A stretch of DNA of 64,000 nt. It comes from Commensalibacter nepenthis (GTDB taxonomy: Bacteria; Pseudomonadota; Alphaproteobacteria; Acetobacterales; Acetobacteraceae). The translations under genes were made by a program, and so were the position numbers. The DNA lies in contig NZ_JASBAN010000001.1 in NCBI RefSeq assembly GCF_029953305.1, positions 1,462,501-1,526,500 of the forward strand. Direction: 5' to 3'. The notes under the pieces are model-generated. The model was not told the origin of the DNA. It saw only the letters and a list, made by a program, of their open reading frames with translations, and did no database searches. Shown piece after piece: positions 30,704 through 48,707 of the stretch; position 1 is the first letter of the stretch, and the number at the start of each line of letters is the position of its first letter.

Positions 30704-30753
30704 TTTTATTTGGTTAAGTAATTTTTTAAATTACGGTATCAATGACATTAATT

Positions 30754-30830
30754 AATAAAAATAAATAAATAAATAAATAAATTAAAATAAATAAATAAAT
30801 TAAAATAAATACAGAAATTAATTGATAAAT
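30754..30830 (+). repeat. AAAT tetranucleotide repeat upstream of the Hint surface-protein gene
   Basis: Three blocks of AAAT units (6, 4 and 2 copies) separated by TTA interruptions lie 31-107 bp before the ATG at 30861. Tetranucleotide tracts in promoters of surface genes are a known cause of length change by slipped-strand pairing, which can shift promoter spacing. The tract is in the likely promoter or leader, not in coding sequence. Whether it varies in this organism is unknown. Confidence 0.85.
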
Positions 30831-30860: not shown

Positions 30861-33800
30861 ATGTCTGAAGACAAAAATAATAATCAATCAAGTGTGGAGC
30901 AAACAGCCACGGTTGTGGTTGCTGCTAATGACGCTGTTTCCTCGTCATTAAGTGATGTGCTTTTAGGGAGTTCTGCTGGTGTTATTTCCAGTGGTGGTTC
31001 ATTAAGTAGTGATGGTTCGGCTTCTTTATCTGAGTTAGCATCTGCGGGTATTGTCGGATCTGATGCGGCTTCGCTTGCGTCTGCATACAGTGCTGGTGTT
31101 ATGTCGGTATTGGATGAAACATATTATGCGGGTGCATTAGGTCGTTCTTTACAAGCTGCTACGGTGCAAAATGCTGCCGTTTTAACGACAAGACCAAATG
31201 CGCCAACCCAGGGTATCGATACATATAAGATCGCTCAAAGCCAGGCTATGTGGCTTGCTACAGCGTCTAATATGGTCAAAGCGACCTCTGCAGGTTATGC
31301 TAATCTATATTACAATGTTGGCAGTAACACACTTTATGCTGGATTAAATGCAACTGTTGGTAGTGCTGGTGGCGGTAAGGGTGCTGTTATTTATAGCCAG
31401 GGCGGTAATCTGAATATTAATGCTAATGCTGGTCTAAACATAACGAGTGCTGGTCAGATTCTGGTTGGTGGAAATTTTGGCACGGATTTTACATTTAATA
31501 CCTCTCAGACGCTGAGGTTGGATAGTGGAACTTATTTAAGTGCTACAGGATACCTTGGAGGGATTGCGGATAAGTCACAAGCTGGTACATCTCTCGTTGG
31601 GAAGGAAAATTTGCGTACGGGCGGTGTTTCAACAGCAGATAGTGTTGTAATGGATGTTGGTACTGATGTTGGTGTGGTTGGGGATGTGGGCGGCTTTCCC
31701 ACGCAAACAATAATTGGAAATAATAATGTTATAAGAATGGGTGGGAATATCGGGGTATTTCTGAATGCCTCTATGACTGTTGGAAGTGATGTTCATATGT
31801 CGGTTGCTACTGCCACTGGTAGTGGTTTCTTTATCGGCTCAGGTGGTTATTATAGTGCGGCTGATTATGGCAATTATTATGTTCATGGAGGTATGGGGGC
31901 TGCATATCTAAATGGCACGTTAAATAGTGCTGCGCGTCTAATTTTAGGAAATAACACCACTGTTAAGTTGGATAATGCAAACTGGGGTAACTTTGCTGCT
32001 CAGGCGGGTGCTTCGGTTATTGTTGGTAAGGCATTTAATTTAAGTGCATTGGAAATTTCAGTTGGTTACGGGCAAAATCCTAATACGGGGGGTATTCTTG
32101 GTTCTCAAACTGCAAGCATGGTTATTGGTAGTGATGCAACCATCAGTTTGGGTCAAGCGGGATTGTTGGATAATGGTTCAAAATTCTATCTTGGCTCGAA
32201 CGGTGCGATTGTTGTTGATGGATTGGGTGGTGTACTAAATGTTGGTAATGGAGCTACCATAACAGCCAATACTATTTCTGTTGGTAACTATACCAAGGAT
32301 TATAGTGGCTTTAATCCCCAAGTTGGGTCAAATATGCAGTATTCTTGGTATAAAACGGGTTCCAATAATAGTGTAACTATTGGTTCTAATGCTGAAATCA
32401 ACCTTTCTGGTGGTATTGCGCTTGATGGTAATAATGGTAAAGTGCAGCTGGTTGGTGGTACTACATCGAGCATTTTAAATGCTGGTTTTATCAGCGCGGG
32501 TCGTTTTTACAGAGATTATCGTGTGGCGCTTGTAAATGGTAGTTCAACTGCTCCTGTTACGAAGTATAATTTTGTATATGATAATACTTCTGGTGCGACT
32601 GTTAATATTGGTGATAATTATATTATTACCTTGACTTCTGGGACAATTAATACAGGGTTTGCTAATGAGCCAACCATAAGTAATAACGGAAACGTTATGA
32701 ACAATATTAATGGTGGTGTGTTTACTTTTGGCAATAATGTTCAATTGAACGCCAACTCAGTTGTTGTGGGTGATTATTATCTTTCTACAGTCAATAAATA
32801 CACCCATAAACCTGTTATTTTTTCTGCATTAACATTAGCAGCATCTACGACTTATGGTAGTAATGCCCAGCTAAATCTTTCTGGTGCTGTTTTGTTAAAT
32901 GGTTCAGGAAATTTAATAAATTTTGGTGATGGATTGACTTTGAATGCATCAACAATGTCATTTGGTAGTGGTATCGGAGGCGGAACACAACTCAGTAATG
33001 TTTTCTCTGCTGGATCATTCGGAAGCATTACGTTAAGTAATGGATTAAGTAATACTCTGGGTGCTGGTAGGTTCCAACTGGGTAATAATGGTTATATTCA
33101 CCTTCTTTCTGGTGATTACGTTATGAATGGTTCGGGTCAAGTTGGAACTCTTGCCAATAATAATCAATTTATCCTAGGGGATAATAGCAAGTTATTGCTT
33201 GATGCGGGCTCCATTTTAGTCAGTGGTCAAAGGCAAAATTTTGCAATGGGGAACACCGGAATAGTCTCTGCTGATAATTTTAATATATCAGGTTCCGCTC
33301 AAACATTTACCTTTGGTAGTAATGCGGTTATTGATATTAAAAATAATTTATCGTATGTCGGATCTGTTACTTCGATGAGTTTTGGGAATAACTTAACTCT
33401 TAATGCGGGTTCTATGTCCCTCGGTGCGGTATCTGCAACAGGTATCATTGATGGAGGAAACATTTTCTCTGCGGGAGCTTCTGCAAGTATTACTCTAAGT
33501 ACTGGACTTACAAACAATATGGGTTCAGGAATATTCCAACTAGGTAATAATGGTTATATTCACCTTCTTTCTGGTGATTACGTTATGAATGGTTCGGGTC
33601 AAGCTGGAACTCTTGTCAATAATCGATTTATCCTAGGGGATAATAGCAAGTTATTACTTGATGCTGGTAACTTGGTGTTAAATGGTCAAAGGCAAACATT
33701 TACGGTTGGTAGTACTGGTACAATTGTTGCCAATACATTTAGTATGGGTGGAACATCTCAAACCTTTATCGTCAGTAATAATGCTACTGCTACGTTCAAT

Positions 33801-35885
33801 AGTGGTATCGTGGTTGACGGTGCAATATTAAATACAACATTTGGTAATAATGTCGGGTTGACGGTTGGTGCTAATGGTATAATATTTAACACCTCAACAC
33901 AGTTTGCTGTTGGCACGGGTGGATCTGTCAATGTTGCGGGTGATATTGTTTTTGGTTTGAATGCAGCTAATACGACGTTTAAAGTAGGTGCAAATCAAAC
34001 AACGTTTAAAGCCAATAATATTGTGGTGAATGCCGACAGTCCATCTCTGACATTTGGTGGTGGAATTGCTTATAATGTTGCTGGTTGGAACTTGAATGGT
34101 AAGGCGGATACAATTTTATTAGGTGATGGTGCGACGGGATCCATTGGCAATATTACTGTTGGTGGTAATGCAACTGGCGCTTCCTTTAATACCGGTAAAG
34201 CAAAAAGTTTAAGTTTTGGTAATGTAACTTTGATAAATGATGCTGCACTTACTTTAAATGGTAACGTTACTGGTCAATCGTTGAACTTGGCTGGTGTAAC
34301 AAAAGTGAATGTTGTTGCCGGTGCAACTGTGGATATCGGTAGTCTGTCGTTTGATGGAACACAGCAAGTTATTATTAATGTTGCCTCTGGTGCGACATTG
34401 AATATTGATTCAGTATCAACATTCAATGTTGGTTCTAGCAATATACCTAGGATTAATATCCAGGGTGGTACAGTTATTGTTGGTGGTCAAAAATTACGCT
34501 CTTTGAGTACAGATCAATATATGGTTGATTTTGGCACTACTGCGCAAAATGGTGTTTATAGATATGAGGGCACTATTCAAGAACAGAGTGGTAAAATAAC
34601 GTTGAATAACTTTGCGTTATCAGATCAGGCGGTTTTTGATATTGGCACTCAATATTTAGATCAAAATCGTTATCAGACGAGTGTCAAGGATGGCGTTTTA
34701 TATGTTGATTATATCACGGAAGCTGGGCAACGGGTTAATTTAGCGCAATTTAGCTATACTCCAGCAAGTGGAAGTCAAGCTGTTCCTAACGTTGTTATTA
34801 GTCAAGATGATACCAGTGGAACAGGTTGGACGATCACGTTGACAAAATGCTTTGTGACTGGGACGCATATTTTGACACCAAATGGTGAGGTCACTGTAGA
34901 GAGCTTAAATGTTGGCGACCAGGTTATTACGCTTCAGAATGGAGAACAGGTCAGCAAACGGATCGTTTGGGTTGGTCATATAGATGTGAGTGTGAACCAT
35001 TACGGACATAAAGATACTTTGTATCCTGTTCGTATTAGAGCACACGCATTTGGATTAAACCAACCTTGCCGTGATTTGTTGGTGACGCCAGAACATACAA
35101 TTTACGTCGATGGTGGTTTGATACCAGCACGTATGTTGGTCAATGGACGTTCTATTATCGTAGATACCGATATGGATAACTTTACAGTTTACCATGTTGA
35201 AACTGAAGATCATTCAATTCTGTTGTCAGAGAATTTAGCAACTGAATCTTACCTTAATACTGATGATCGTCATTTATTTAATGGTGATACGGTTAATCTG
35301 CATTTGGCCTTTAATGAGAATGCAGGGCATCAAATTTGGGAAAATGATGCGGCCGCACCATTGACTGTCGCAAGACATCAAGTAGAACCTATTTGGCAGC
35401 GTTTGGATTGTCTTGCAACGCAACAGGGTTATGCCTTTGTGAATAAACAAGAGACGACGAGAGATCCAGATCTTTGTTTAATTACACAAAAAGGGAGGAA
35501 ACTTCATCCTGTTGATGTCAGAGGCAATGTTTATAGCTTCTATGTACCTGCAAATGTGAGCGTTGTTGCAATGCATTCAAAAGCAGCGTTACCATCAGAA
35601 GTGGTTGGTCCATTCCTTGATGATCGACGGATGTTGGGTGTTCTGGTTGCAAAAATCAGCGTGTTTGGTGATAAATCCTTTGATATTCTTCCTTCTGATA
35701 TGACGGGTCTTTCAGGTTGGCATCCAGCTGAATTGAACCGAACAGATCGTTGGACAAAAGGATTGGCAACATTACCTGCAGTTGTTTCTGAGATGAGTGA
35801 TAAAGTTAAGTTGATTAAAATCGAATTAACCACCACGGCAGAATATTTTGTAGATATAATTGAGTTTGCCGAACATATTGCATAA
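30861..35885 (+). CDS. Large beta-helical surface protein with C-terminal Hint domain
   Basis: This 1674-residue protein has a Ser/Ala/Gly-rich N-terminus with no typical Sec signal, about 1200 residues of repeats with the recurring pattern of a Gly-Asn turn then an alternating strand (FGNN, LGNNGYIHL, LGDNSKLLLDAG), which looks like a beta-helix, and a Hint domain from about 1330. The Hint splice motifs are present: Cys1330 in TKCFVTGTHIL, the NGEVTVESLNVGDQV strand, and the TxxH motif T1409-P-E-H1412. A tail of about 200 residues follows. Hint_2-type proteins are common in acetic acid bacteria. There is no autotransporter barrel. Substrates for AAH/TibC enzymes are also repeat proteins, and such an enzyme lies at 46247. 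Export route and cleavage are unproven. Confidence 0.78.
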   Translation: MSEDKNNNQSSVEQTATVVVAANDAVSSSLSDVLLGSSAGVISSGGSLSSDGSASLSELASAGIVGSDAASLASAYSAGVMSVLDETYYAGALGRSLQAATVQNAAVLTTRPNAPTQGIDTYKIAQSQAMWLATASNMVKATSAGYANLYYNVGSNTLYAGLNATVGSAGGGKGAVIYSQGGNLNINANAGLNITSAGQILVGGNFGTDFTFNTSQTLRLDSGTYLSATGYLGGIADKSQAGTSLVGKENLRTGGVSTADSVVMDVGTDVGVVGDVGGFPTQTIIGNNNVIRMGGNIGVFLNASMTVGSDVHMSVATATGSGFFIGSGGYYSAADYGNYYVHGGMGAAYLNGTLNSAARLILGNNTTVKLDNANWGNFAAQAGASVIVGKAFNLSALEISVGYGQNPNTGGILGSQTASMVIGSDATISLGQAGLLDNGSKFYLGSNGAIVVDGLGGVLNVGNGATITANTISVGNYTKDYSGFNPQVGSNMQYSWYKTGSNNSVTIGSNAEINLSGGIALDGNNGKVQLVGGTTSSILNAGFISAGRFYRDYRVALVNGSSTAPVTKYNFVYDNTSGATVNIGDNYIITLTSGTINTGFANEPTISNNGNVMNNINGGVFTFGNNVQLNANSVVVGDYYLSTVNKYTHKPVIFSALTLAASTTYGSNAQLNLSGAVLLNGSGNLINFGDGLTLNASTMSFGSGIGGGTQLSNVFSAGSFGSITLSNGLSNTLGAGRFQLGNNGYIHLLSGDYVMNGSGQVGTLANNNQFILGDNSKLLLDAGSILVSGQRQNFAMGNTGIVSADNFNISGSAQTFTFGSNAVIDIKNNLSYVGSVTSMSFGNNLTLNAGSMSLGAVSATGIIDGGNIFSAGASASITLSTGLTNNMGSGIFQLGNNGYIHLLSGDYVMNGSGQAGTLVNNRFILGDNSKLLLDAGNLVLNGQRQTFTVGSTGTIVANTFSMGGTSQTFIVSNNATATFNSGIVVDGAILNTTFGNNVGLTVGANGIIFNTSTQFAVGTGGSVNVAGDIVFGLNAANTTFKVGANQTTFKANNIVVNADSPSLTFGGGIAYNVAGWNLNGKADTILLGDGATGSIGNITVGGNATGASFNTGKAKSLSFGNVTLINDAALTLNGNVTGQSLNLAGVTKVNVVAGATVDIGSLSFDGTQQVIINVASGATLNIDSVSTFNVGSSNIPRINIQGGTVIVGGQKLRSLSTDQYMVDFGTTAQNGVYRYEGTIQEQSGKITLNNFALSDQAVFDIGTQYLDQNRYQTSVKDGVLYVDYITEAGQRVNLAQFSYTPASGSQAVPNVVISQDDTSGTGWTITLTKCFVTGTHILTPNGEVTVESLNVGDQVITLQNGEQVSKRIVWVGHIDVSVNHYGHKDTLYPVRIRAHAFGLNQPCRDLLVTPEHTIYVDGGLIPARMLVNGRSIIVDTDMDNFTVYHVETEDHSILLSENLATESYLNTDDRHLFNGDTVNLHLAFNENAGHQIWENDAAAPLTVARHQVEPIWQRLDCLATQQGYAFVNKQETTRDPDLCLITQKGRKLHPVDVRGNVYSFYVPANVSVVAMHSKAALPSEVVGPFLDDRRMLGVLVAKISVFGDKSFDILPSDMTGLSGWHPAELNRTDRWTKGLATLPAVVSEMSDKVKLIKIELTTTAEYFVDIIEFAEHIA
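33072..33237 (+). repeat. Internal direct repeat in the surface-protein gene, copy 1
   Basis: This 166-bp segment is nearly identical to 33534-33696; the difference includes a 3-bp length change that keeps the reading frame. It encodes the FQLGNNGYIHLLSGDYVMNG stretch through to GQRQ. Similarity at the nucleotide level, not only protein, points to a recent duplication or gene conversion. Confidence 0.92.
33534..33696 (+). repeat. Internal direct repeat in the surface-protein gene, copy 2
   Basis: This is the second copy of the repeat at 33072-33237, offset by 462 bp (154 codons). The DNA between and beyond the copies is much less similar, so the conserved block is limited to about 55 codons. 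Confidence 0.92.
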
Positions 35886-35923
35886 ATTAAACTTGATGAA
35901 AAATAATGTGATTTTATGAATGT

Positions 35924-35968
35924 AAAACTTTCCTTTTCTGTAATTTAAGAAGAGGAAAGTTTTTCTTA
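35924..35968 (+). terminator. Terminator after the Hint surface-protein gene
   Basis: AAAACTTTCCTTTTCT and AGAAGAGGAAAGTTTT form a stem of about 16 bp (one wobble) with an 8-base loop, followed by TTCTTATTTT. It should separate the surface-protein transcript from the ANL-PKS genes, leaving a promoter for the latter in the short remaining gap or by read-through. Confidence 0.82.
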
Positions 35969-35988
35969 TTTTATGGTGGAGTTTTTTT

Positions 35989-37467
35989 ATGTATGACCGT
36001 TTTATAGAACATGTTTCAAGAATATCACCAAATAAAGAGGCAATGTTATCATTTGATGGTTCGGTTACGTTTGCCAAAATGGATGCCGATATTAATCGTT
36101 TAGCAGCAGCATTGCTTGAAAAATTGACACCATTGCCCAAGGTTGTTGCGGTTTCTTATCAGCAAATGCATCCTCATTGGATGTTTTTAATGGCACTTAG
36201 CCGTATTGGTGTTGCGACAGCGTCTGTCGCTGATGATAGTTTGATTGCTGCAAAAGAAATAGCAGTTCTTAAACCTGATTTGATTATTAGTGATGCTTTC
36301 TTTGATGTGGAAACTCAAGCTAAAGTTGTAGTTCTAGATTTAGATTGGTATTCCCAAATCGTAAGTGGACCAGAGGTTCAACCTTTGCGTTTTGCTCTGG
36401 ATCGTGATCGTGTGGTACGTGTTGCGATTGCTGGGGGGACATCGGATAAAAAACGTCGTATTGATTTTACAGCATCTATGATTGAGGCAGCTGTTATTCG
36501 TTTGGCTCATCAAGAATATCTTGAATGGGCTGAAATACAAGATGCTGCACGATATCATCGTTTGTTACCGACTTTAGGATTGGGTAGTGTTCATGGGTTT
36601 TTGTCTGCTTTAAGTATATGGTATGTGTGCGGTTCTGTGATTATGGCGGATAGAGAACAGTATCCTGCAGCTATTGCTATGTTAAAACCGTCGCTTATGA
36701 TTATTTCACCATCTCAGTTACAAGATATTTTGAATCATTTGCCTGCTGATGTGCCTTCTGTTACTGGATTAAGATTGGTTGTTTCGGCGGGGTATTTCTC
36801 CTCGGCGTTACAAGAAACAGTTCGTAGCAAGTTAACACAACATATGCGTGTATTATATGTAACCAGTGAAGCTGGTCTGATTGCTGGTGCGCGTGTTGAA
36901 CAAATGACGCATGATGATATGGCAGGGTGGTTGTTGCCTTCGGTTGATTTGCAAATTGTTGATGATGAAGGTCAAATATTACCTGTGGGTGAAATTGGCA
37001 ACATCCGGATTAAAAGTGCTGAGCTTGTTGATGGTTTTTATGAAGATGAAGAGGCTACAAATCGTCAATTTAAGGATGGTTGGTTTTACCCTGGTGATTT
37101 AGGAATATTGGATGTTCGTGGGGGATTGCGTATTTTTGGTCGTGCAGACGAATTATATAATTTTGGTGGTGATAAATTTCCAGCACAAACGATTGATCGT
37201 ATCGTACAATCATTGCCTGGTGTTAAAGACGCAGCTTTATTTTCTATGCCAAATGAGCAAGGTATTCCTGAACCATGGTTGGCGATCGTTAAAGATGTTG
37301 ATTTCGATGTAGAAAAGGTTAGTGAGGCTTTGGAAAGTGAATTTCACAATTTACCGAATGTCAGAGCCATGTGGGTTGATGTGATTCCAAGAGATGTGGT
37401 TGACCGTGTATTGAGATATCAATTAAGTATGGTGGCAAGCCAGCAATATGCCAAAATGCACAAATGA
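35989..37467 (+). CDS. ANL-superfamily adenylate-forming protein with eroded motifs
   Basis: This 492-residue protein has the ANL fold (acyl-CoA/adenylate ligase): a large N-terminal domain, the DGWFYPGDLGIL hinge motif near 363-374 and the GRADELYNFGGDKF block near 384-397. Two catalytic motifs are altered. The P-loop normally reads SGTTG-x-PKG; here it is IAGGTSDKKRR near 146-156. The C-terminal lysine motif (usually TxSGKxLR) is RDVVDRVLR near 468, with Arg in the lysine position. It may be inactive, a binding partner, or an enzyme with altered chemistry. It lies 58 bp before a type I PKS, and a normal adenylating partner follows the PKS, so the degenerate copy probably has a structural or chaperone role; that is inference. 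Confidence 0.72.
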   Translation: MYDRFIEHVSRISPNKEAMLSFDGSVTFAKMDADINRLAAALLEKLTPLPKVVAVSYQQMHPHWMFLMALSRIGVATASVADDSLIAAKEIAVLKPDLIISDAFFDVETQAKVVVLDLDWYSQIVSGPEVQPLRFALDRDRVVRVAIAGGTSDKKRRIDFTASMIEAAVIRLAHQEYLEWAEIQDAARYHRLLPTLGLGSVHGFLSALSIWYVCGSVIMADREQYPAAIAMLKPSLMIISPSQLQDILNHLPADVPSVTGLRLVVSAGYFSSALQETVRSKLTQHMRVLYVTSEAGLIAGARVEQMTHDDMAGWLLPSVDLQIVDDEGQILPVGEIGNIRIKSAELVDGFYEDEEATNRQFKDGWFYPGDLGILDVRGGLRIFGRADELYNFGGDKFPAQTIDRIVQSLPGVKDAALFSMPNEQGIPEPWLAIVKDVDFDVEKVSEALESEFHNLPNVRAMWVDVIPRDVVDRVLRYQLSMVASQQYAKMHK

Positions 37468-37525
37468 AGAATCTATTGATGTTCATACAATTACATCAAA
37501 TTAAAAACTATATAGTATAAAAGTC

Positions 37526-40500
37526 GTGAAAGTTGAAAGTAGAATACCCATGAAAGTATTAGGTGATAAGCAATATTCTGGTGAAATAGCTATCATTGGT
37601 ATTGGTTGTCGATTTCCAGGTGGAATTGTTGATTTATCCAGTTTTTGGGAAGCTGTCTGTGGTAAAAAAGAAACCGTTAGTGAAATCTTGCCTTCTCGTT
37701 GGAACTGGAAAGGGGCTTACGATAAAGATAATACAATGATTGCAAAGAGCTTCTTTAAAAACGGAAGCTTTTTGACACAGCCAATTGATGAATTTGAACC
37801 ACTATTCTTCGGTATGTCTCCAAAAGAAGCTGTACAGTGTGACCCTCAACAGCGTGTGTTGCTAGAAGTTGCTTGGGAAGCAATGGAAGAGGGAGGGCTC
37901 GTTGCTTCTCATTATGCGGGTAAAAAAGTTGGTGTTTTTGTTGGTATCTTTGCGACCGATTGGCTGATTATGCAATCCAGTCATTATGCAAGTGAAGGCA
38001 ATGTGGAAACCAACTTCCTGGCGACAACAGCGTCAACGACAATGATTTCTGCCCGTCTATCTTATTTCTTTGATTTTTGTGGTCCTTCTTTGGCTTTGGA
38101 TACGGCGTGTTCTTCTTCGTTGACGGCTATTCATTTAGCATGTCAAAGCTTGAGGGATGGTGACAGTGATATGGCTATGGCTGGGGGGATCAATATTATG
38201 TTAACCCCACAATCTGGTGCATTGGTAGCTAAAGCCCGTTTCATGGCTGAAGATGGTAAAAGTAAAAGTTTCGATGCAGCAGCAGATGGTTATGGACGTG
38301 GTGAAGGATGTGGTGTTGTTATTCTTAAAAGGCTAGAAGATTCGATTGAGGATGGCGACAAGATTCATACGGTTATCAGTGGTATTGGCATTAATCAAGA
38401 TGGTCATAATGAAGGTATTACGGTTCCAAGTGCAGTAGCACAAGAAAAATTAATTCGCACCGTCGCAGAACAAGCTAAAATCAACTTAAAAGACATTGTT
38501 TATGTAGAGGCTCATGGAACGGGAACCCCTGTTGGTGATCCGCTTGAAGCACAAGCAATTTCGAACACGATTGGTAAAAGTCGCCCGAAGGAAAGTCCTG
38601 TCATTATTGGATCTGTCAAAGCCAATATTGGACATTTGGAAGCGGCAGCAGGGGTGGCTGGTTTGATTAAGGCTTGTTTATGCCTTGAACATAAAGCAGT
38701 GCCCCCTCAGGCAAATTTAACAGAACCAAATCCGAACATTGCCTTTGAAGATATGAATTTGCGATTGGTGCAAGATGAAGTTGTGCCATTAACAACCACT
38801 GCAAAAGATTTATACGCAGCGGTGAATTCATTTGGGTATGGTGGTTCTAACGCAAATGCGATTATTCGTTTGCCTCGTAAAGAAGAAATTGTACCCCGAA
38901 TAAATTCTGAAGACGCGCATTTGCCTTCTGATAGTTATATTTTGTCTTTGTCAACAAAGCAGCAACCTTCATTAAAATTAACAGCCGAGGCTTATGCTGC
39001 GTTCTTAAGAGCGGATAATAGCCCATCTATCGAAGATATTACTTATTCTGTTGGCAAGCATCGTTCTTTTTTCCAAAGGCATTTGGTGACTTTTGGCAAA
39101 ACAAAAGAAGAAATTGCCCAAAAATTAGAAGATTTCGCTCAAGACAAACCTAATCCAGATGTAATTGTTGGTCAGCAACAAATTAAAACCCAAACGCAAC
39201 CTGCTTTTGTCTTTTCAGGGATGGGGCCACAATGGTGGGGTATGGGGCAATGGTTGTTGAAAAACGGACCTGCTGAATGTCTGGATATTGCCAAAGAAAT
39301 TGATGGGTATTTCCAAGAGCTTTCCGGGTGGTCTATTCTTGCTGAGTTGCAAAAGACCGAAGAAGAATCTCGTATTCATGAGACAGCTGTTGCACAACCA
39401 GGTATTTTCACAATACAAGTATGTCTTGCTGAGACATTAAAGATTTATGGTATTCGTCCTGCTGCGATTGTTGGTCACAGTGTGGGTGAGGCTGCTGCTG
39501 CATATGTTGCGGGCGCATTGAGCTTGAAAGATGCAGCAACAGTTATTTATCATCGTAGTCGTCTGCAACAGACATTTGCTGGTCGTGGTTCAATGTTGGC
39601 TGTTGGGATGCCACCATCAACATCTGCCGAATTAATTAAGGACTATGAAGGGGATGTTGCGGTTGCTGCAATTAACAGCCCTCGTTCTTTTACGTTATCA
39701 GGTAGCCAAGAAAACCTTGCAAAGATTGCTGCTGAACTAGAAAAACGTTCTGAATTTAATCGCTTTTTGAAAGTCGAATTGGCTTATCATAATCCAATTA
39801 TGGCTGATATTCGCGATGAATTCGAAGACGCTGTTGAAAGGATTCAACCTAAAGTTCCAACTATTCCTTTATATTCAACAGTTACAGGGCATATTTGTGA
39901 CGATACGTTTTTTCATGATGCAAGCTATTGGTATCGTAATTTAAGGCAAACGGTTCTATTCGCCGAAGCGATTACGACGATGATCCATGATTCTTATTCT
40001 TTATTTTTAGAAATAGGACCTCATCCTGTTTTATCTGCTTCTATTAAAGAATGTGCTGCGACTTTAAATTCCTCTGTTGGTACTGCGTATACATTCCATC
40101 GTTCTGAACCAGAAGAGAAATCTATTGTTAAATCTTTAGCAAGCTTGTCTGCTGTGGGTTTAGAGTTGGATTGGGATAAAATTGTTTCTGGTAAGAGAGT
40201 AGATTTGCCATTCTATTGCTGGGCAAAAGAAGTTTACTTAAATGAAAGTAAACAGCTGCGTGCACGTCGTATGGCAGAGCGTGTCAATCCAGTTCTAGGG
40301 AATATCGATTGGTCAGGCTCTCGTGGATGGTTGTCTGAGCTTAATATTAATTTTATGCCATGGATTGTCGATCATCAACTTGAAGGGATGAAGATATTTC
40401 CAGGAGCAGCCTACGTCGAAGCTGCGATTGCTGCGCATGCTCAATTAGCCGCTGATGCACCAAAAGAAATGCAAGAGCCAGCAATTGTTGAAGATATCCA

Positions 40501-43500
40501 ATTTAAAAAAGCAATGTTGATTGATGGAAAATTTTATCCATACATCACATGGTCTGTAGATGAGCTGACTGGACGGCTTTTGGCTTATGGTCGCACGGAA
40601 AATGATTCCCCGAATTGGGAGTTATATTCAACGGCGTTGTTACGTCGCACCGTGCCGTGGAATGGTGATGTTATTGAGGATATTGAGGCACTAAAAGCAA
40701 AAATCACTGAAGAAGTTGATGTTTCTTTTTATTACGGTAAAATGCATGAATATGGCATGCAGTATGGTCCAGCTTTCCAAACCATTCAAAAACTTTATCG
40801 TGGTCATGGTGTTGCTTTTGCACATTTAAAAATTGCAGAATCTGAAAAAGAGACTATCCAGGATTATTATATTCATCCAACATTGCTTGATGGTGCATTT
40901 CAGTTATTTGGATTATTAGGGGCAGAAAAACAGGTTTCTGAGACGACGTTTGTGCCTGTTTCGATTGAGCGTGTGATGTATTTCGGTCGTCATGAAGGCG
41001 AGCTTTATGCCTATGGTGGCAATATCAGACGAGATGACGAATTCTTAATCGGTGATATTTACATTTATACACCAAAGGGTGAACCTGTTGCGAAAATTAC
41101 AGGCTTAACCGTTAAGGAGTTGGCGACAGAAAAACAAAAAGAGGCCAAACGTGCGCGTTGGTTATATCGTTATGAATGGAAAGATGCAGAAGTTACGCCA
41201 TTATTGGGCGAAATAGCACGCATTGCGTTTATTACTGATAATGATGTAATTGCTGACCCGTTAATTGCCGAACTTGAATCTCAAGGGCTGACTGTTTTGC
41301 AAGGAAGGCTTGGGGAAAGGTCAGGTTTAGAAGCAGAAAATATCTTTAACATTCGTTATGGGAGTGAAGAGGATTATAAAGCATTTTACTCTTTTGTAGA
41401 TATTCAGAAATGTCGTGCTTTAGTATATCTGCGTAAAGATAATATTCTTAATGATGATGCTATTGGATTATCTTTGGTACAAGAACTTTTATGTGTTGCC
41501 AAGAGTTTACCAGCGTTAGAAGATAAAGATGTTACTGATAATCTACGTTGTGTAATTATCACGAATGGTGCTGAAAAAGTTCTAGAAGATGAAAATATCG
41601 TTAATCTTGGACAATCCTCTTTACGTGGATTTATGCGTGTATTTTTACTAGAGCGTCCTGAAGTGCAACCTAAAATGGTTGATATTGATGGGGATATGAA
41701 TGCTGTTCAAATTCCTGTTTTAGCAGCAGAAATTTTATCCGATGATGTGGAAGATGATGTTGCATTAAGAAAGGATAAACGATTTATTTCACGTTTGGTT
41801 CCTTATAAACGTCAAGAAAATATCACACCAATTCCATTTACCGATGTAAAAGATAAAAATCTTGGTTTCCGTTTAGTTCCTGGTCGTGCGGGGATGTTGG
41901 ATCAAATACACTTTGATTTATTCGAACGTCAAAAGCCACCTCCGATGCATATTGAGGTAGAGGTAATGACTTCTTCCTTGAACTTTAAAGACCTTTTAAA
42001 GGTGATGGGGTTACTCCCTCGTGCAGTTGGGAAAGGTACTTTCCACCAGGATGGTTTGGGAATGGAAGCGGCCACCCACATCATCGCTGTCGGTGAAGGT
42101 GCGGAAGAAGCAGGATATTATGTTGGGGATCGTGTTGTTATTTCTACTCAAAACTGTCTAGCTTCTCACGTAACCCTTTCTGTTGAGAATTCTTACGCAA
42201 TGCAGTTGGATAAGAACTCTACAATTAGGGAAAGGCATCGCTATAATCTAAGCGACAACGAGATTGAACGGCTTCATAAGGAATTGGATTTTGAGATTCC
42301 AGATGCTGAAGCTTCAACGATGCCGACTGTATACGCCACAGCTTATCATATATTACTTGATGTTGCGAATATTCAAGAAGGTCAAACAATTCTGGTGCAT
42401 TCGGGTTCTGGCGGTCTAGGGCTAGCAGTGATTTCGATTGCAAAAATGAGAAAAGCTAGAATTTTTGCGACCGCTGGTAATGAAGAAAAACGTCAATATT
42501 TACGTGACCACGGTTGTGAACATGTTTGGAATTCTCGGAACCTTGAATTCGTTGATGGTGTAAAAGAGGTGACGAATGGTAAAGGGGTAGATATTGTTGT
42601 TAACTCTTTATCAGGTGAAGCCTTACAACATAGTTTAAGTCTGGTTGCACCTTATGGATACTTTTTCGAAGTTGGAAAAAGGGATATTGTTGAAGGCAAA
42701 TGGCTACCGATGCATGCCTTTAATGAAAATATTACTTTCCGTTCAATGGATTTGGATCGGATGTTGGCTCAACGTCCAGACGAAATTCTCCGGATGTTAT
42801 CTGCTTGTACACGTCACATCATGAATAGGGAAATCGTGATGCCGCCTTGTACTGTTATGCCAGCAGCTAAGGCAACCGATGCGTTTAGGTTATTAGCATC
42901 AGCTCAACACATTGGTAAAGTTGTGTTGGATTTTGCTGATAAAACTGATTTAATGGTTAATCCTCTTCCTAAAGAAATCCCAACAGTTCGAGATGACGCC
43001 GTGTATTTGGTGACGGGTGCTTATGGTGGAATGGGATTACAATTAATACAATGGTTGGTATCTATGGGTGCTAAACATCTTGTATTGGTTGGGCGTTCGT
43101 TAAAAATAGAAAACGAGGCTATTCAAAAAGCGTTGGATATCTTGGTAGCACATGGTATCAGCATTCATCAGATGCAGGCAGATATTGTTGATTATAACAG
43201 TATTAAATCTGTTATAGAACAAGCGAATCAATTGGATATGCCTTTAAAAGGTATCTTTCATTGCGCAGCAGTGATTGATGATGGTGTTATTACTAATCTT
43301 GATAATGAACGTTTAGCTAAGGTTATTTTGCCAAAAGCGCAAGGCGCATGGAATCTACATGAATTAACCAAAGATATGGAATTAGATCATTTTGTTCTAT
43401 TTTCTTCTGCAACGAATTTGCTTGGAAATATTGGACAGGCTGCTTATGTTTCTGCGAATTTCTTCTTGGATGCTTTGGCGAAATATCGTAAGCAAAACGG

Positions 43501-44155
43501 ATTGCCAGCTCTTGCGATTGAGTGGGGTGCCATTGATGGTGGTAGCATGTATCAAAAAGATAGTCGTGCTGCGAAAAACTTTGAAACTATTGGGGTAACT
43601 CCTATTCCGATCAAAGAAGCACTAGCAACGATCTCCTTGCTTTGGAAAGCCGATCAGCCCTGTGTTGGTGTATTAGATATTGATTGGTCTAAATGGTTTG
43701 GCGTATTTCCGATGACACGTACAGTTGGGCGCTATCAAGAGTTATTGACACTTGGGAATTCTTCCTATGAACAAACCGAGGTATTACGTCAATTAAACGC
43801 ATTACCAATGGAGGAACGTTTACCGTTTGTTGTAAAGAATTTAATTGATATTCTGACCAAAACGTTGCAAATTCCACCAGATAGTATTGATGGTAATACG
43901 CGTCTGACAGAACTTGGTATTGACTCTCTTGTTGGTGTTGAGCTGCAGATTGCGATTAGTAATACGTTGGGATGTGAAATTTCATTATTACAATTAATGA
44001 AAGAAGAAAACCTTCAAGATGTGGGGAAAGTGTTATTGAGAAAGCTGAAAATATCATTTGAAAGTAATGAATCCTTGATACTTGATTCTGATGCTGAATC
44101 CTCGGAAGGTAAGGGAACAATGATCGAAGATTCTTCTAGTAAAGAAGTGGAATAA
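37526..44155 (+). CDS. Type I polyketide synthase, fully reducing single module
   Basis: This 2209-residue megasynthase shows KS, AT, DH, ER, KR and ACP in order, so one module can take an extender unit to a fully reduced methylene. KS: Cys195 in DTACSSS, His330 in EAHGTGT, His370 in NIGHLEAA. AT: Ser652 in GHSVGEA and His755 in AYHNP. DH: His950 in DHQLEG and Asp1122 in LDGAFQ. ER: SGSGGLGL near 1626. KR: TGAYGGMG near 1830 and Tyr1974. ACP: Ser2134 in GIDSLVG. No methyltransferase or thioesterase domain is seen, so release needs another protein. The start is GTG at 37526; ATG at 37550 is an equal alternative. The AT motif does not clearly tell malonyl from methylmalonyl specificity. Neighbours are an ANL protein and a fatty-acyl-AMP ligase 9 bp downstream. 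Confidence 0.93.
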   Translation: MKVESRIPMKVLGDKQYSGEIAIIGIGCRFPGGIVDLSSFWEAVCGKKETVSEILPSRWNWKGAYDKDNTMIAKSFFKNGSFLTQPIDEFEPLFFGMSPKEAVQCDPQQRVLLEVAWEAMEEGGLVASHYAGKKVGVFVGIFATDWLIMQSSHYASEGNVETNFLATTASTTMISARLSYFFDFCGPSLALDTACSSSLTAIHLACQSLRDGDSDMAMAGGINIMLTPQSGALVAKARFMAEDGKSKSFDAAADGYGRGEGCGVVILKRLEDSIEDGDKIHTVISGIGINQDGHNEGITVPSAVAQEKLIRTVAEQAKINLKDIVYVEAHGTGTPVGDPLEAQAISNTIGKSRPKESPVIIGSVKANIGHLEAAAGVAGLIKACLCLEHKAVPPQANLTEPNPNIAFEDMNLRLVQDEVVPLTTTAKDLYAAVNSFGYGGSNANAIIRLPRKEEIVPRINSEDAHLPSDSYILSLSTKQQPSLKLTAEAYAAFLRADNSPSIEDITYSVGKHRSFFQRHLVTFGKTKEEIAQKLEDFAQDKPNPDVIVGQQQIKTQTQPAFVFSGMGPQWWGMGQWLLKNGPAECLDIAKEIDGYFQELSGWSILAELQKTEEESRIHETAVAQPGIFTIQVCLAETLKIYGIRPAAIVGHSVGEAAAAYVAGALSLKDAATVIYHRSRLQQTFAGRGSMLAVGMPPSTSAELIKDYEGDVAVAAINSPRSFTLSGSQENLAKIAAELEKRSEFNRFLKVELAYHNPIMADIRDEFEDAVERIQPKVPTIPLYSTVTGHICDDTFFHDASYWYRNLRQTVLFAEAITTMIHDSYSLFLEIGPHPVLSASIKECAATLNSSVGTAYTFHRSEPEEKSIVKSLASLSAVGLELDWDKIVSGKRVDLPFYCWAKEVYLNESKQLRARRMAERVNPVLGNIDWSGSRGWLSELNINFMPWIVDHQLEGMKIFPGAAYVEAAIAAHAQLAADAPKEMQEPAIVEDIQFKKAMLIDGKFYPYITWSVDELTGRLLAYGRTENDSPNWELYSTALLRRTVPWNGDVIEDIEALKAKITEEVDVSFYYGKMHEYGMQYGPAFQTIQKLYRGHGVAFAHLKIAESEKETIQDYYIHPTLLDGAFQLFGLLGAEKQVSETTFVPVSIERVMYFGRHEGELYAYGGNIRRDDEFLIGDIYIYTPKGEPVAKITGLTVKELATEKQKEAKRARWLYRYEWKDAEVTPLLGEIARIAFITDNDVIADPLIAELESQGLTVLQGRLGERSGLEAENIFNIRYGSEEDYKAFYSFVDIQKCRALVYLRKDNILNDDAIGLSLVQELLCVAKSLPALEDKDVTDNLRCVIITNGAEKVLEDENIVNLGQSSLRGFMRVFLLERPEVQPKMVDIDGDMNAVQIPVLAAEILSDDVEDDVALRKDKRFISRLVPYKRQENITPIPFTDVKDKNLGFRLVPGRAGMLDQIHFDLFERQKPPPMHIEVEVMTSSLNFKDLLKVMGLLPRAVGKGTFHQDGLGMEAATHIIAVGEGAEEAGYYVGDRVVISTQNCLASHVTLSVENSYAMQLDKNSTIRERHRYNLSDNEIERLHKELDFEIPDAEASTMPTVYATAYHILLDVANIQEGQTILVHSGSGGLGLAVISIAKMRKARIFATAGNEEKRQYLRDHGCEHVWNSRNLEFVDGVKEVTNGKGVDIVVNSLSGEALQHSLSLVAPYGYFFEVGKRDIVEGKWLPMHAFNENITFRSMDLDRMLAQRPDEILRMLSACTRHIMNREIVMPPCTVMPAAKATDAFRLLASAQHIGKVVLDFADKTDLMVNPLPKEIPTVRDDAVYLVTGAYGGMGLQLIQWLVSMGAKHLVLVGRSLKIENEAIQKALDILVAHGISIHQMQADIVDYNSIKSVIEQANQLDMPLKGIFHCAAVIDDGVITNLDNERLAKVILPKAQGAWNLHELTKDMELDHFVLFSSATNLLGNIGQAAYVSANFFLDALAKYRKQNGLPALAIEWGAIDGGSMYQKDSRAAKNFETIGVTPIPIKEALATISLLWKADQPCVGVLDIDWSKWFGVFPMTRTVGRYQELLTLGNSSYEQTEVLRQLNALPMEERLPFVVKNLIDILTKTLQIPPDSIDGNTRLTELGIDSLVGVELQIAISNTLGCEISLLQLMKEENLQDVGKVLLRKLKISFESNESLILDSDAESSEGKGTMIEDSSSKEVE

Positions 44156-44164
44156 ACATACAGT

Positions 44165-46210
44165 ATGGCTCTTATTATTCCTGATGTTACTGAGGAAGAT
44201 TGGGCGTGCAAAATATATGGCATTGTTGATTGGCATACCGCGACCCTGGTTGATATGTTACAACATCGTGCCAAAATTTCCCCATCTATGGTTTTATACT
44301 CCTTATTAGATGGGGATTGTAATATTATTGATCATTTAACGAGTTTTCAGTTAGATGATCGTGCTGCCACAATTGCTGCTGGGTTACATCATTTTGGTCA
44401 GGAGGGGGATCGCGTCCTCCTCCTATGTGACAATGATTTGAATTATATTTCTGCATTTTTTGGGTGTATTTATGCTGGCATGATTCCTGCGTCTGGTATT
44501 CATATTGATGTCATGCGCAGTGATGAACGTTTCGAGATGGTCGCTAATGATGTGCAGCCCAGGCTCATTATTGGACCACGTAAAATTTTGGTCGATTATA
44601 AAGCTAGCCATAAGGAATTAAATTGTAAGCCAGTATGGGTACCTTTGGAGGTTTTATTTAACGCTAAAAATAAAATCGCAATTAAAGGTAATAATCTTGA
44701 TGTTGCTTTTATTCAATATACTTCTGGGACAACCAGGAATACAAGGGGGATAGAGCTAACGCATCGTAACTTGATCTTTAATCTTCGCCATCAAGCCAAA
44801 AGTTATGAATATTTAGATGAGAAATATAGTGGTCTGACTTGGTTACCTTTGGCGCATGATATGGGATTGATTGGTTGTGTTTTGCTGGCGATAGGATGCG
44901 GGGGGGAATGTATGTTGTTGCCACCCAAATATTTTATTGAAAAACCGGCTCGTTGGCTACAAGCTTTGTCACGATATAAAGTAAGCATGTCTGGAGGTCC
45001 TACATTTGCATATAATCTATGTACAAAAGAGGTCACGGATGAGGAAGTGCAACAGCTCGATTTATCTGCTTGGGAATTAGCGTTAAACGGCGCAGATACG
45101 GCGCAAGCGGATATTATGAAGCGTTTTTGTAAGAAATTTTCTGGGGTTGGGTTTAAAGCACGTCATTTAGTTTTTGGATATGGTTTAGCAGAAGCCACTT
45201 TAACAGCCACTAGGACTCAACGACGTGTTTTGCCCAAGTTTAGAAGCTTTTCAAGAAGTGCATTAATGGCTGGTTTTGCATGGCCAAGTATTAATAAATT
45301 TGATCGAAGAGAGCTGATTTCCTGTGGAACGTCTTTAGAGGATCAAAAGGTTATGATTGTTGATCCAGAGACAAATATGCCACTTAGGAACGGTCGTGTT
45401 GGAGAAATATGGATCACGGGTCCAAGTGTTGCCAAAGGATATTTAAATAGACCAGAAGAGACCGAAGAAATTTTTCATGCAAAAATTATCGGGCAAAGTG
45501 AAACTTATTTACGTACTGGTGATTTAGGTTTCATATTAAACGACAATTTGTTCTTTTCTGGACGGATTAGTAATGTGATTACATTGAGAGGAAAAACATA
45601 CGATCCAGATGATGTCAGCGGTGTTTTAGAAGCGGCATGTTCTGATATCCGACCCAATGCAACCGCCTTTTTCCTAGCTGATTTAGAAGATCCTGTATCC
45701 ATTACTGTGATTATAGAATTGGTTAAAAAACCATTCAATTCATATGATGCGATTGCTCAGATAGCCTATGAAATTATAACCAAAACTTATGATATTTGGC
45801 CTAAAACGATTGTGTTGACACGACCCGGAGGGGTCTTAAAGACTCCAAGTGGCAAGGCACAAATTGCCAGAACGCGTAAAGCCTTGAAAGAAAACGCTTT
45901 GCCTGTTATTAAACGATTTGATTATGAGGTCCCTGATCTTCCTCCACCTTTGACATATGAGCAGGCTCTGGTTGAAGTCAAAAAATGGATTGAAGAGGCA
46001 ACAAAAGAGTGGGATGAGAATGTAAAAGAGTTAACGCGTGAAAAACTAGTGAACAGAAAAATAGATTCAGAATTGTTATTAAATTTACGACGTGATTTTG
46101 AGGCATATTTTCATATTCAGATTGATCCATCTGAATTTATGGTGGCATGTCAAAATTATAACGATTTATGTAATTTACTAGCTAATCAGATCAGCGTAAT
46201 CATATCATAG
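44165..46210 (+). CDS. Fatty-acyl-AMP ligase (FAAL)
   Basis: FAALs activate fatty acids as acyl-adenylates and hand them to a carrier protein, typically a PKS. The 681 residues include the AMP-binding loop YTSGTTRNTRG near 185 and the FAAL-like WLPLAHDMGLIG near 220, with the Gly-rich hinge (LRTGDLG near 440) and an intact C-terminal lysine motif TPSGKAQ near 567. The loop lacks the PK of CoA ligases, as in mycobacterial FAALs. The last 80 residues resemble a carrier domain, with Asp-Ser at 634-635 inside IDSELLLNLRRDFE, but Glu follows the Ser, so phosphopantetheine attachment is doubtful. The gene is 9 bp after the PKS, which makes it the probable starter loader. Confidence 0.88.
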   Translation: MALIIPDVTEEDWACKIYGIVDWHTATLVDMLQHRAKISPSMVLYSLLDGDCNIIDHLTSFQLDDRAATIAAGLHHFGQEGDRVLLLCDNDLNYISAFFGCIYAGMIPASGIHIDVMRSDERFEMVANDVQPRLIIGPRKILVDYKASHKELNCKPVWVPLEVLFNAKNKIAIKGNNLDVAFIQYTSGTTRNTRGIELTHRNLIFNLRHQAKSYEYLDEKYSGLTWLPLAHDMGLIGCVLLAIGCGGECMLLPPKYFIEKPARWLQALSRYKVSMSGGPTFAYNLCTKEVTDEEVQQLDLSAWELALNGADTAQADIMKRFCKKFSGVGFKARHLVFGYGLAEATLTATRTQRRVLPKFRSFSRSALMAGFAWPSINKFDRRELISCGTSLEDQKVMIVDPETNMPLRNGRVGEIWITGPSVAKGYLNRPEETEEIFHAKIIGQSETYLRTGDLGFILNDNLFFSGRISNVITLRGKTYDPDDVSGVLEAACSDIRPNATAFFLADLEDPVSITVIIELVKKPFNSYDAIAQIAYEIITKTYDIWPKTIVLTRPGGVLKTPSGKAQIARTRKALKENALPVIKRFDYEVPDLPPPLTYEQALVEVKKWIEEATKEWDENVKELTREKLVNRKIDSELLLNLRRDFEAYFHIQIDPSEFMVACQNYNDLCNLLANQISVIIS

Positions 46211-46246
46211 CTTTACATAATCGTAAAAATTAAAAGGAAATAGAGA

Positions 46247-47716
46247 ATGAGTGAAGATCCTAAAGTTAAAGTTGAGGGTTTTGAACGTATTAAATTAAAA
46301 ACACGTGAAGAACAGGACGCAAGCAATTCAAATCAACAATCTAATTTAGAACAGAAAAATGAAAGTGCAATAAATCAACCAATCATTGATGAGTTGGCAA
46401 AAAAATTCTCTCCAGCAATAGGTGGGGATAATAGTCCTTCAAACCAACAAAATGCAGATAATGCTTCGAATGGGGCTCAACAGTCATCTCAATCTGAAAA
46501 CAGCTTAATTCAGCCGCCAGCAATTCCAACTCAAGATGCGGGTCAAGGAATTGCTTTTGACTTTAATTTTGCGATGCGTGTTTCTGTACCAAAACCAGCA
46601 GAAGGTGAAGGATGGCGTATTCAACTATATGATCAAGATGCAGAGGTTGCTTTACTGGATCAACCTTGTTTTGATACAGGACACGCCGCATCAGCGAAGC
46701 ATCATTATTTAAATGGAAAAATCACGGTTTACAAAATTAAAAAGGATGGGCAGCAAGAAGAAGTATTTTCTCATCAATATAATGCAGTAGGTAAGGATGT
46801 GTTGATTGTATTCCCCGTAGGATCTTTAGGGGATTCTTTGGGATGGATGCCTTATGCTGAGAAGTTTAGAGAAAAACATTGTTGTAATTTGACGCTTGCG
46901 ATTGCTCAGCCATTAATTGAATTGTTTGAGAAGTCTTATCCAGAAATTAGGTTTGTGAATGCGTTGGAATACGCCAAGAAAGAACCAAAAGATTCTTATT
47001 ACGCTTCTTATTACATAGGATTATTCTTTCAAGACGATGATAATCATTGGCAACCTGAGGATTTCAGACAAGTAGGGTTGCATCGTACTGCTGGCTATAT
47101 TTTAGGCGTTGATCCTACAGAAGAACCCCCTAAGTTAACATATAGTGATGATACAAGACCGATAGAGGAGCCGTATGTTGTTATTGCAACGCAAGCTTCT
47201 ACACAATGTAAGTATTGGAACAATCCCTTTGGATGGCATCAAGTGATTAAGTTCTTAAAATCAGTTGGATATCGTGTCATTTGTATCGATAAAGAAGTTG
47301 CTTTTGGTCGTGATTTGGTTTGGAACCATATTCCAAATGGTGCAGAAGATCAAACAGGAAATCGTTCTTTAACGGAAAGAGCACGTTGGTTAAAACATGC
47401 TGAATTCTTTGTTGGTTTATCTTCTGGTCTGGCATGGTTGGCATGGGGCGCGGGTATACCTGTTGTCATTATTTCTGGATTTACGCATCCATCAACTGAA
47501 TTTGACACACCTTATCGTGTCTTTAGCACGCATGTTTGTAACGGTTGTTGGAATGATGTTCGGTATCAATTTGATCATAGTAATTTTCTATATTGTCCCA
47601 AACATGAAAAAACACCGCGTCAGTTTGAATGCACAAAAGGGATTTCACATCAACATGTGATTAAAACAATTTTGCAAATTCCAGGATGCCGATCAGAAGT
47701 AATTAATAACGCCTAA
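46247..47716 (+). CDS. Strand-loop-strand O-heptosyltransferase, TibC/AAH-like
   Basis: TibC and AAH transfer heptose to Ser residues in the repeats of autotransporters such as TibA and AIDA-I. This 489-residue protein matches the family: GSLGDSLGWMPYAEKFR near 191-207, the NPFGWHQVIKFLKSVGYRVICID strand-helix block near 325-347, the GLSSGLAWLAWGAGIPVVIISG block near 386-407, and a four-Cys metal motif (Cys431, Cys434, Cys450, Cys462), which in TibC binds iron. The first 100 residues are low-complexity, rich in Asn, Gln, Ser and Glu, and open with MSED, as the Hint protein does. The likely substrate is the Hint surface protein at 30861, or another repeat protein. It follows the FAAL by 36 bp and ends at a terminator. 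Confidence 0.87.
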   Translation: MSEDPKVKVEGFERIKLKTREEQDASNSNQQSNLEQKNESAINQPIIDELAKKFSPAIGGDNSPSNQQNADNASNGAQQSSQSENSLIQPPAIPTQDAGQGIAFDFNFAMRVSVPKPAEGEGWRIQLYDQDAEVALLDQPCFDTGHAASAKHHYLNGKITVYKIKKDGQQEEVFSHQYNAVGKDVLIVFPVGSLGDSLGWMPYAEKFREKHCCNLTLAIAQPLIELFEKSYPEIRFVNALEYAKKEPKDSYYASYYIGLFFQDDDNHWQPEDFRQVGLHRTAGYILGVDPTEEPPKLTYSDDTRPIEEPYVVIATQASTQCKYWNNPFGWHQVIKFLKSVGYRVICIDKEVAFGRDLVWNHIPNGAEDQTGNRSLTERARWLKHAEFFVGLSSGLAWLAWGAGIPVVIISGFTHPSTEFDTPYRVFSTHVCNGCWNDVRYQFDHSNFLYCPKHEKTPRQFECTKGISHQHVIKTILQIPGCRSEVINNA

Positions 47717-47725
47717 CGATAAATA

Positions 47726-47757
47726 AAGCATTCGGGTTTAAAAACTCGAATGCTTTT
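47726..47757. terminator. Bidirectional terminator after the heptosyltransferase
   Basis: AAAGCATTCGGGTTT and AAACTCGAATGCTTT form a 14-15-bp stem (one wobble/mismatch) with a tiny loop and T-run on the plus side and A-run on the minus side. It marks the end of the ANL-PKS-FAAL-heptosyltransferase genes and also follows ubiG on the minus strand. Confidence 0.88.
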
Positions 47758-47770
47758 TGTTTGTTAAGTT

Positions 47771-48520
47771 CTATATTTTAGACAAGCAAACCATATAATT
47801 AATTTTTACGTCTTGCGATATTTTCCAGCCATTAGGTCTCATGGTTAAACCTGCTATATCGATAACTCGCAGTCCTGCATGATGTGCCATTTTTCCAAGT
47901 TCAGCGGGTGTGATGAATTGTTTCCAACTATGCGTGCCAATCGGCAATTTGCGTGTTAAATATTCGGCTCCGACTTTGGCGAATAGGAAAGAGGGAATAT
48001 TACGGTTAATTGTGGATAGAAAAGCCATTCCTTGATCGGTCAAAAGTTCAGCAATATTATGAACGAATTGTTGCGGATCATTGACATGTTCTAAAAGCTC
48101 TAACGCCGTGATAATTTGAAATTGTTTTTTTTCCTCTACAAGTTCTTCAATGGTTCCCACGCGATAGGTGATATGACCACTTTTGGGAGGTAATGGAATG
48201 GTATCAAGATGATTTTGTGCGGCTTGAATGACATCTCTCCCGGCATCAACGCCCAATATATTATATCCCAAAGAGGCAAGACCTTCACTGGCTATACCAA
48301 CGCCGCACCCAATATCGAGAATAGGTTGGTTGGTATCAAGAGGATAGGTTTTTAAAAAATGTTGAATCCATTCGATACGTAGTGCATTCATTTCGTGGAG
48401 CGGGCTCATTGGACCAGTTTGATTCCACCATTCACTGGCAATGGCATTAAAACGATTAATTTCATCTTCTTTTACAGAATTCTTTTGATTGTCTGGATTA
48501 TGTGGTGTAACGGTGGACAT
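47771..48520 (-). CDS. ubiG: UbiG methyltransferase
   Basis: UbiG carries out both O-methylations of ubiquinone synthesis. The class I SAM-binding motif LDIGCGVGIASEGLASLGYN is at about 70-89, followed by GVDAGRDVI and the QIITALELLEHV segment; FNAIASEWWNQTGPMSPLHEMN near 26-47 is the family's N-terminal signature. ATG at 48520 is preferred over the GTG at 48535 because AAAGG lies 8 bases upstream. It is convergent with the heptosyltransferase and divergent from lysC, a ubiG-lysC neighbourhood that is common in alphaproteobacteria. Confidence 0.95.
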   Translation of the reverse strand: MSTVTPHNPDNQKNSVKEDEINRFNAIASEWWNQTGPMSPLHEMNALRIEWIQHFLKTYPLDTNQPILDIGCGVGIASEGLASLGYNILGVDAGRDVIQAAQNHLDTIPLPPKSGHITYRVGTIEELVEEKKQFQIITALELLEHVNDPQQFVHNIAELLTDQGMAFLSTINRNIPSFLFAKVGAEYLTRKLPIGTHSWKQFITPAELGKMAHHAGLRVIDIAGLTMRPNGWKISQDVKINYMVCLSKI

Positions 48521-48707
48521 GGTCTGGCCTTTCACAGGGTCGTCAAGTAAAATTAATCAAATTATAAACAAAAAAATAAGTCAATAGTTTGATTATCAAT
48601 TATAACTAGGTTAAGTATTCATTTAACGATATTTTCAATACATAAAGTTTATATTTTCATTATGTAAAGAGTAATAATGAAAATAATGATTACGGAGTTT
48701 GCTTTTT

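Follow-up and report, generated by a model that had tools for sequence, protein, structure and literature searches.

Why would an acetic acid bacterium of the bee-gut type keep side by side, on a single strand, the genes for a giant beta-helical protein with a Hint domain, an eroded acyl ligase, a polyketide synthase (PKS), a second acyl ligase and an enzyme that transfers heptose to proteins? The question is raised by a 64,000-nt stretch of Commensalibacter nepenthis (the window in what follows; host genome, 2.5 Mb), in which five consecutive open reading frames (ORFs) of the plus strand span 30861-47716, with intergenic gaps of 103, 58, 9 and 36 bp in the ORF listing. In order they encode a large Hint protein (30861-35885), a protein of the ANL superfamily (35989-37467), the PKS (37526-44155), a fatty acyl-AMP ligase (FAAL; 44165-46210) and a TibC/Aah-type O-heptosyltransferase (46247-47716), all of them present where the initial annotation had placed them. 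The answer that we favor, with a probability of about 0.6, is that the five genes constitute one conserved functional unit, which would build a modified surface protein together with a companion envelope lipid.

A gene grouping retained across genera

The grouping is real and not a product of chance, as can be seen from a sample of 200 Acetobacteraceae genomes, which were examined by profile searches and by homology searches with the PKS. Scores for the PKS split sharply, reaching at least 1000 bits in 14 genomes, marking a recognizable variant in the two genomes of genus g30, and staying at or below 600 bits elsewhere. The cluster-type PKS is present in 16 of the 200 genomes, which belong to seven genera; all nine Commensalibacter genomes examined have the PKS as well. 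Every one of these 16 genomes also has a gene above the cut-off of the heptosyltransferase family TIGR04414, always within ~13 kb of the PKS, the family being found in 55 of the 200 genomes overall; this co-occurrence has a hypergeometric P of ~2e-10, a value uncorrected for relatedness among the genomes. The ANL and PKS genes are adjacent in every genus but g30, in which a Hint gene separates them, a FAAL gene is nearby in all seven genera, and the Hint gene adjoins that for ANL in 12 of the 16 genomes, representing five genera. As a control, a comparison of coordinates in the eight genomes combining other PKSs with a TIGR04414 gene revealed no case of linkage between the two. Moreover, none of the PKSs of other families that score 966-1244 bits over the whole protein adjoins a gene for a Hint protein, a cluster-type ANL protein or a heptosyltransferase, two of them having a weak FAAL-like neighbor, and the five-gene cluster was not found at the six loci examined outside Acetobacteraceae. 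The initial annotation had considered that a scattering of the five genes among related genomes would speak against a functional link; the genes lie together in seven genera, and the controls are negative.

Gene content is largely shared among these genera, and the gene order is rearranged. Genus g1 shows Hint-ANL-PKS-FAAL-GT (GT, glycosyltransferase) and g61 the same order with two GTs; g33 and g101 have ANL-PKS-FAAL-GT-GT; g85 and g9 have FAAL-GT-GT divergent from Hint-Hint-ANL-PKS; and g30 has Hint-ANL-Hint-PKS-FAAL-GT-GT. This variety bears upon the possibility that two unrelated modules, one formed by an adhesin and its heptosyltransferase and the other by the enzymes of lipid synthesis, have become neighbors through vertical inheritance alone. 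In favor of such a separation, a terminator-like hairpin divides the Hint gene from the remaining genes, and most heptosyltransferase-bearing genomes are devoid of the cluster-type PKS. Yet the gene content is kept despite the changes in order and orientation, with divergent halves in g85 and g9 and Hint genes flanking the ANL gene in g30; furthermore, in most genera the heptosyltransferase gene is found beyond those of lipid synthesis, with the same orientation, and does not adjoin the Hint gene. We consider a mere juxtaposition of two modules quite unlikely. As a separate observation, one of the g33 loci (L050, 3479-6852) carries beside its cluster the genes for a DsbD-like thiol:disulfide interchange protein and a GT4-like glycosyltransferase.

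How much of this was known? The initial annotation regarded these parts as rarely described together, which overstated their rarity, since much of the combination has been reported in related genera (PMC8776678). Type I PKS (T1PKS) clusters of the beta-group, which include acyl ligases and an O-heptosyltransferase, are described from Acetobacter, Gluconobacter, Asaia and Bombella, those of Asaia having Hint proteins in addition, and those of Bombella a thioredoxin and a glycosyltransferase (PMC8776678); the T1PKS of Bombella apis has KS, AT, ACP, DH, ER and KR domains plus two putative adenylation domains (PMC8262860). The genomes of our sample were matched to Bombella, Asaia and others by gene content only. 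The locus of the window resembles the beta-group clusters in having a single-module KS-AT-DH-ER-KR-ACP enzyme between acyl ligases, as well as an O-heptosyltransferase, with neither a thioesterase nor a pyridoxal phosphate (PLP)-dependent aminotransferase. It differs from them in several respects: that survey does not list Commensalibacter among the genera with such a PKS, the Hint gene recurs in five genera of our sample, the catalytic motifs of the first ligase are eroded, an additional tail extends the FAAL, and we read the whole as surface assembly instead of specialized metabolism (cf. PMC8776678). Literature searches combining Hint with polyketide, or Commensalibacter with heptosyltransferase, retrieved nothing nearer than the same survey. 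The cluster type is already known; what is new here is its reading in terms of a surface protein, the controls, the ANL gene that is eroded and still under selection, the hairpin behind the Hint gene and the form that the cluster takes in Commensalibacter.

The heptosyltransferase and the Hint protein

The last enzyme is assigned to TIGR04414 by a score of 571 bits, the cut-off of the family being 200. Its residues D196, K322, R378 and W397 align with D110, K230, R286 and W305 of TibC, which comprise the catalytic base and sugar-binding positions, and four cysteines align with those of the TibC iron finger, C339/342/358/370, the TibC residue T226 being replaced by Ser (residue roles in TibC after PMC4358343). 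The position for stereoselectivity is occupied by a serine (S392), as in Aah. This gene is the only TIGR04414 member of the host genome, which also possesses HldE.

Which protein does it modify? The initial annotation proposed the repeats of the adjacent Hint protein; genomic context supports the Hint protein as target, whereas no SLS repeat (TIGR04415) is recognizable in the Hint protein of the window. In the host genome such repeats are confined to three ORFs, all encoding other Hint proteins. Genome G173 is particularly informative: it has kept one TIGR04414 gene, the Hint protein of its cluster is the sole one that it has, and no SLS repeat passes 1e-5. The retention of the heptosyltransferase in that situation indicates the cluster Hint protein itself as the substrate. 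The cluster Hint proteins of g61, g85, g9 and g30 present at least weak SLS matches, the second heptosyltransferase gene of G122 likewise adjoins a Hint gene, and slightly below half of the heptosyltransferase genes examined outside PKS clusters adjoin a Hint gene, mostly one bearing SLS repeats. The Hint protein is therefore probably heptosylated, a proposal well supported by genomic context. This interpretation would suggest that many substrates of TibC-type heptosyltransferases in Acetobacteraceae are Hint-ended proteins and not classical autotransporters. The likeness to the pairs of TibC or Aah with TibA or AIDA-I lies in the matching enzyme residues and in the presence of a beta-solenoid protein within the same unit. 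The difference is that a Hint and a C-terminal domain replace the autotransporter beta barrel, of which the Pfam search found no trace in the C-terminus of the Hint protein, in addition to the missing SLS match and the partner genes for PKS and FAAL.

Other loci of the sample provide some side observations on these families. A contig of 85 kb (L101, G000:C2:60000-79900) carries a 1458-aa frame that combines a Hint domain with ~20 SLS repeats; a transposase-like ORF is present in copies nearby. At L080 and L084, SLS-repeat ORFs of 1920 and 2542 aa adjoin heptosyltransferase genes and show no Hint match. One of the two heptosyltransferase copies of G136 is broken into two frames (L046, 1923-3097). 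Finally, at 9107-15191 of L104 (G000:C1:1093000-1112500) a Hint protein (591-aa frame) is divergent from a small GG-leader-like gene and from genes resembling by eye those for HlyD and a peptidase-type ABC transporter, a possible export partner.

The Hint protein of the window has 1674 aa, and its only Pfam match is Hint_2 (PF13403) at residues 1330-1467 (34848-35261). Inspection by eye revealed no obvious Sec signal peptide. The beta-helical nature attributed to it earlier is borne out by AlphaFold2, which gave a confident model for residues 640-1300 (32778-34760), a section of the passenger consisting nearly entirely of beta strands (mean pLDDT 79.8, pTM 0.80). In Foldseek this model finds Antigen 43 as top match with E 0.014, which is below significance and serves as a pointer only; we take Antigen 43 to be itself a substrate of the Aah type. 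The Hint_2 domain contains Cys1, the TxxH motif in the form TPEH, and HxExxxHS. Cys1 and TxxH are kept in all 27 aligned Hint proteins, TxEH and HxExxxHS nearly or fully so. None of the 27 has the C-terminal His-Asn of inteins and of A-type bacterial intein-like (BIL) domains, and the residue preceding Cys1 is Lys in the window protein and variable in its relatives, not the Gly of Hedgehog Hog domains. Given Cys1 and TxxH without C-terminal His-Asn, an N-S acyl shift and N-terminal cleavage would be permitted, and splicing would not; judging from these residues, the domain may be active in N-terminal cleavage. Directly after it, 25 of the 27 proteins have a conserved C-terminal domain (HCT; 35262-35882 in the window) with the motifs DDRR-LGVLV and GW-RWT-G-A, which has no Pfam match and is common to most of the Hint proteins examined in acetic acid bacteria. 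With respect to C. communis LMG 31819, the closest named relative found and our comparator for dN/dS, the passenger has 62% identity and a dN/dS of 0.26, and the Hint plus C-terminal domain 86% and 0.09.

This arrangement recalls Hedgehog proteins, as well as bacterial intein-like Hint domains, in that a conserved domain comes after a C-terminal Hint domain containing Cys1 and TxxH, even if it departs from the former by the missing Gly ahead of Cys1 and from A-type BIL domains and inteins by the missing His-Asn. One could then imagine that the Hint domain moves the passenger from the Cys1 thioester to a lipid anchor derived from the PKS, the C-terminal domain acting as an adduct-recognition region. 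The universal conservation of Cys1 and TxxH without His-Asn, the domain placed directly behind Hint like the sterol recognition region of Hedgehog (PMC9163320), and the lipid genes adjacent to the Hint gene in five genera are in line with the idea. However, the product of the PKS would be an acyl thioester and hence electrophilic, as is the thioester of Hint, and the cluster encodes neither a reductase nor an aminotransferase that could yield the required alcohol or amine; because both partners are acyl thioesters, their direct ligation would be chemically awkward. Hint proteins with the same C-terminal domain are found also without cluster-type PKS, and the variable residue ahead of Cys1 does not fit either. 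We regard this transfer as very improbable, and correspondingly there is little chance that bacteria have here a counterpart of Hedgehog, namely a surface protein both heptosylated and anchored by a lipid of PKS origin.

The lipid enzymes and the proposed fate of their product

The three enzymes encoded between the Hint protein and the heptosyltransferase have the identities originally assigned to them, as confirmed by Pfam matches and motifs. The PKS is a single-module, fully reducing type I enzyme with the domains KS-AT-DH-ER-KR-ACP, no thioesterase domain being found, and every active-site motif checked is intact. We read its AT motif, which belongs to the (A/P)(Y/F)H type, as malonyl-like. 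Translation may start at ATG 37550 instead of GTG 37526, because homologues align from that position. In two g30 loci (L058 and L059) the cluster PKS has no AT active-site region and would need an AT from elsewhere.

The FAAL has FAALs as its best structure matches and an intact TPSGK motif with the A10 lysine; it aligns with FAAL structures without a large gap, which for the FAAL-specific insertion is a statement about the alignment. A tail of ~80 aa is restricted to Commensalibacter and appears ACP-like by eye; its Ser is not conserved, and a function as ACP was ruled out after finding that the DS serine is missing in three of the seven lineages compared. The ANL protein shows a weak AMP-binding match, an altered A3 P-loop and no A10 lysine, features that do not correspond to an active adenylation enzyme. 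All its PKS-linked homologues share the loss of the A10 lysine and have altered P-loops, both elements being retained in the PKS-less genomes G139 and G064 (g64). It is not a decaying pseudogene, a possibility dismissed on account of its dN/dS of 0.07-0.10 and of the identical losses in all PKS-linked relatives; hence the eroded gene is being maintained. More generally, the enzymes and the Hint part have dN/dS values of 0.04-0.11 with respect to C. communis, and every gene measured is under purifying selection. The combination of a FAAL with an adjoining fully reducing PKS, expected to extend a fatty acid, resembles the FadD-Pks pairs of mycobacteria, from which it differs in the malonyl-like reading of AT, in a unit without Pap acyltransferase or MmpL, and in having a glycoprotein as partner.

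Would the product be a secreted specialized metabolite, for instance an antifungal compound, with a heptosyltransferase that glycosylates it or is a simple passenger, and with the Hint protein being incidental? The T1PKS cluster of Bombella apis has been proposed as an antifungal candidate (PMC8262860), and related clusters are catalogued as loci for specialized metabolites (PMC8776678). More broadly, the T1PKS of bee-associated acetic acid bacteria has been put forward as the origin of an antifungal protecting honey bee brood. Against this interpretation, TIGR04414 is a protein-modifying family whose catalytic and iron-finger residues are conserved here, and the repeat targets in the host genome are Hint proteins. 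In the g64 genomes, moreover, the ANL gene adjoins an SLS-Hint gene with no PKS within the region examined. The unit in the window includes neither a transporter nor a resistance gene, no experiment links the PKS to antifungal activity, and the wide distribution of the PKS speaks against a bee-specific role (PMC9147383). A secreted metabolite is consequently an unlikely product. Since the gene set stays together across genera, a polyketide for which others proposed an antifungal role may be a cell-surface compound instead. If this PKS type does go together with a surface protein that is glycosylated, one would expect it to make an envelope lipid serving adhesion or envelope structure, and the source of antifungal activity should be sought elsewhere.

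Under our interpretation of the five genes as one unit for surface assembly, the Hint protein would be synthesized as a long beta-solenoid, the Ser/Thr residues of which would be heptosylated in the cytoplasm with ADP-heptose from the HldE pathway of the genome. The heptosylated protein would then be exported, by a route not found in this analysis, and its Hint domain would form a thioester at Cys1, splitting the passenger from the C-terminal domain via hydrolysis or transfer to a nucleophile from outside. Meanwhile, a fatty acid would be activated by the FAAL and the PKS would extend it iteratively into a saturated long acyl chain, with the ANL protein, having lost adenylation, assisting in chain handover instead of acid activation. 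The chain would finish in an envelope lipid acting together with the glycoprotein; conceivably, it might also anchor or decorate the Hint protein.

Several observations weigh against this scheme. Besides the missing SLS match in the window Hint protein, g33 and g101 (4 of the 16 cluster genomes) have the ANL gene without a neighboring Hint gene, their Hint genes lying elsewhere. Hint_2 is present in 156 of the 200 genomes, being far commoner than the cluster-type PKS, and so most Hint proteins function without it. The AlphaFold2 model of the Hint plus C-terminal domain, built from too few sequences, reached a pLDDT of 32 and was left unused. The cluster contains no acyltransferase, thioesterase or other recognized offloading enzyme, and no exporter. 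Even so, the locus offers a compact and testable system, in culturable bacteria, for the role of Hint_2 domains on bacterial proteins.

Expression signals and surrounding genes

Between the Hint gene and those of the enzymes lies a plus-strand hairpin of 16 pairs with a T tail (35924-35963; z-score -6.8), which has the form of a terminator or attenuator. The four other Commensalibacter lineages compared have hairpins of the same kind at the Hint/ANL junction, and inspection by eye reveals paired substitutions in them. We read this element as a putative attenuator, which would give more transcription of the structural gene than of the enzymes. The five-gene unit is ended by a second, strong terminator hairpin of 14 pairs on the same strand (47725-47756; z-score -6.95). 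Directly upstream of the Hint gene, an AT-rich array of tandem repeats with units of the type AAATAAAT extends over 30750-30830, and could vary expression through its number of repeats; a shorter and diverged form exists in L037, the array not being evident in the other lineages shown. The surroundings are made of ordinary genes: upstream those for argininosuccinate synthase, FKBP, a class I (W/Y) tRNA synthetase and small conserved proteins, and downstream the convergent ubiG (47771-48535, minus strand), followed by a gene for an aspartokinase-like amino acid kinase with an ACT domain.

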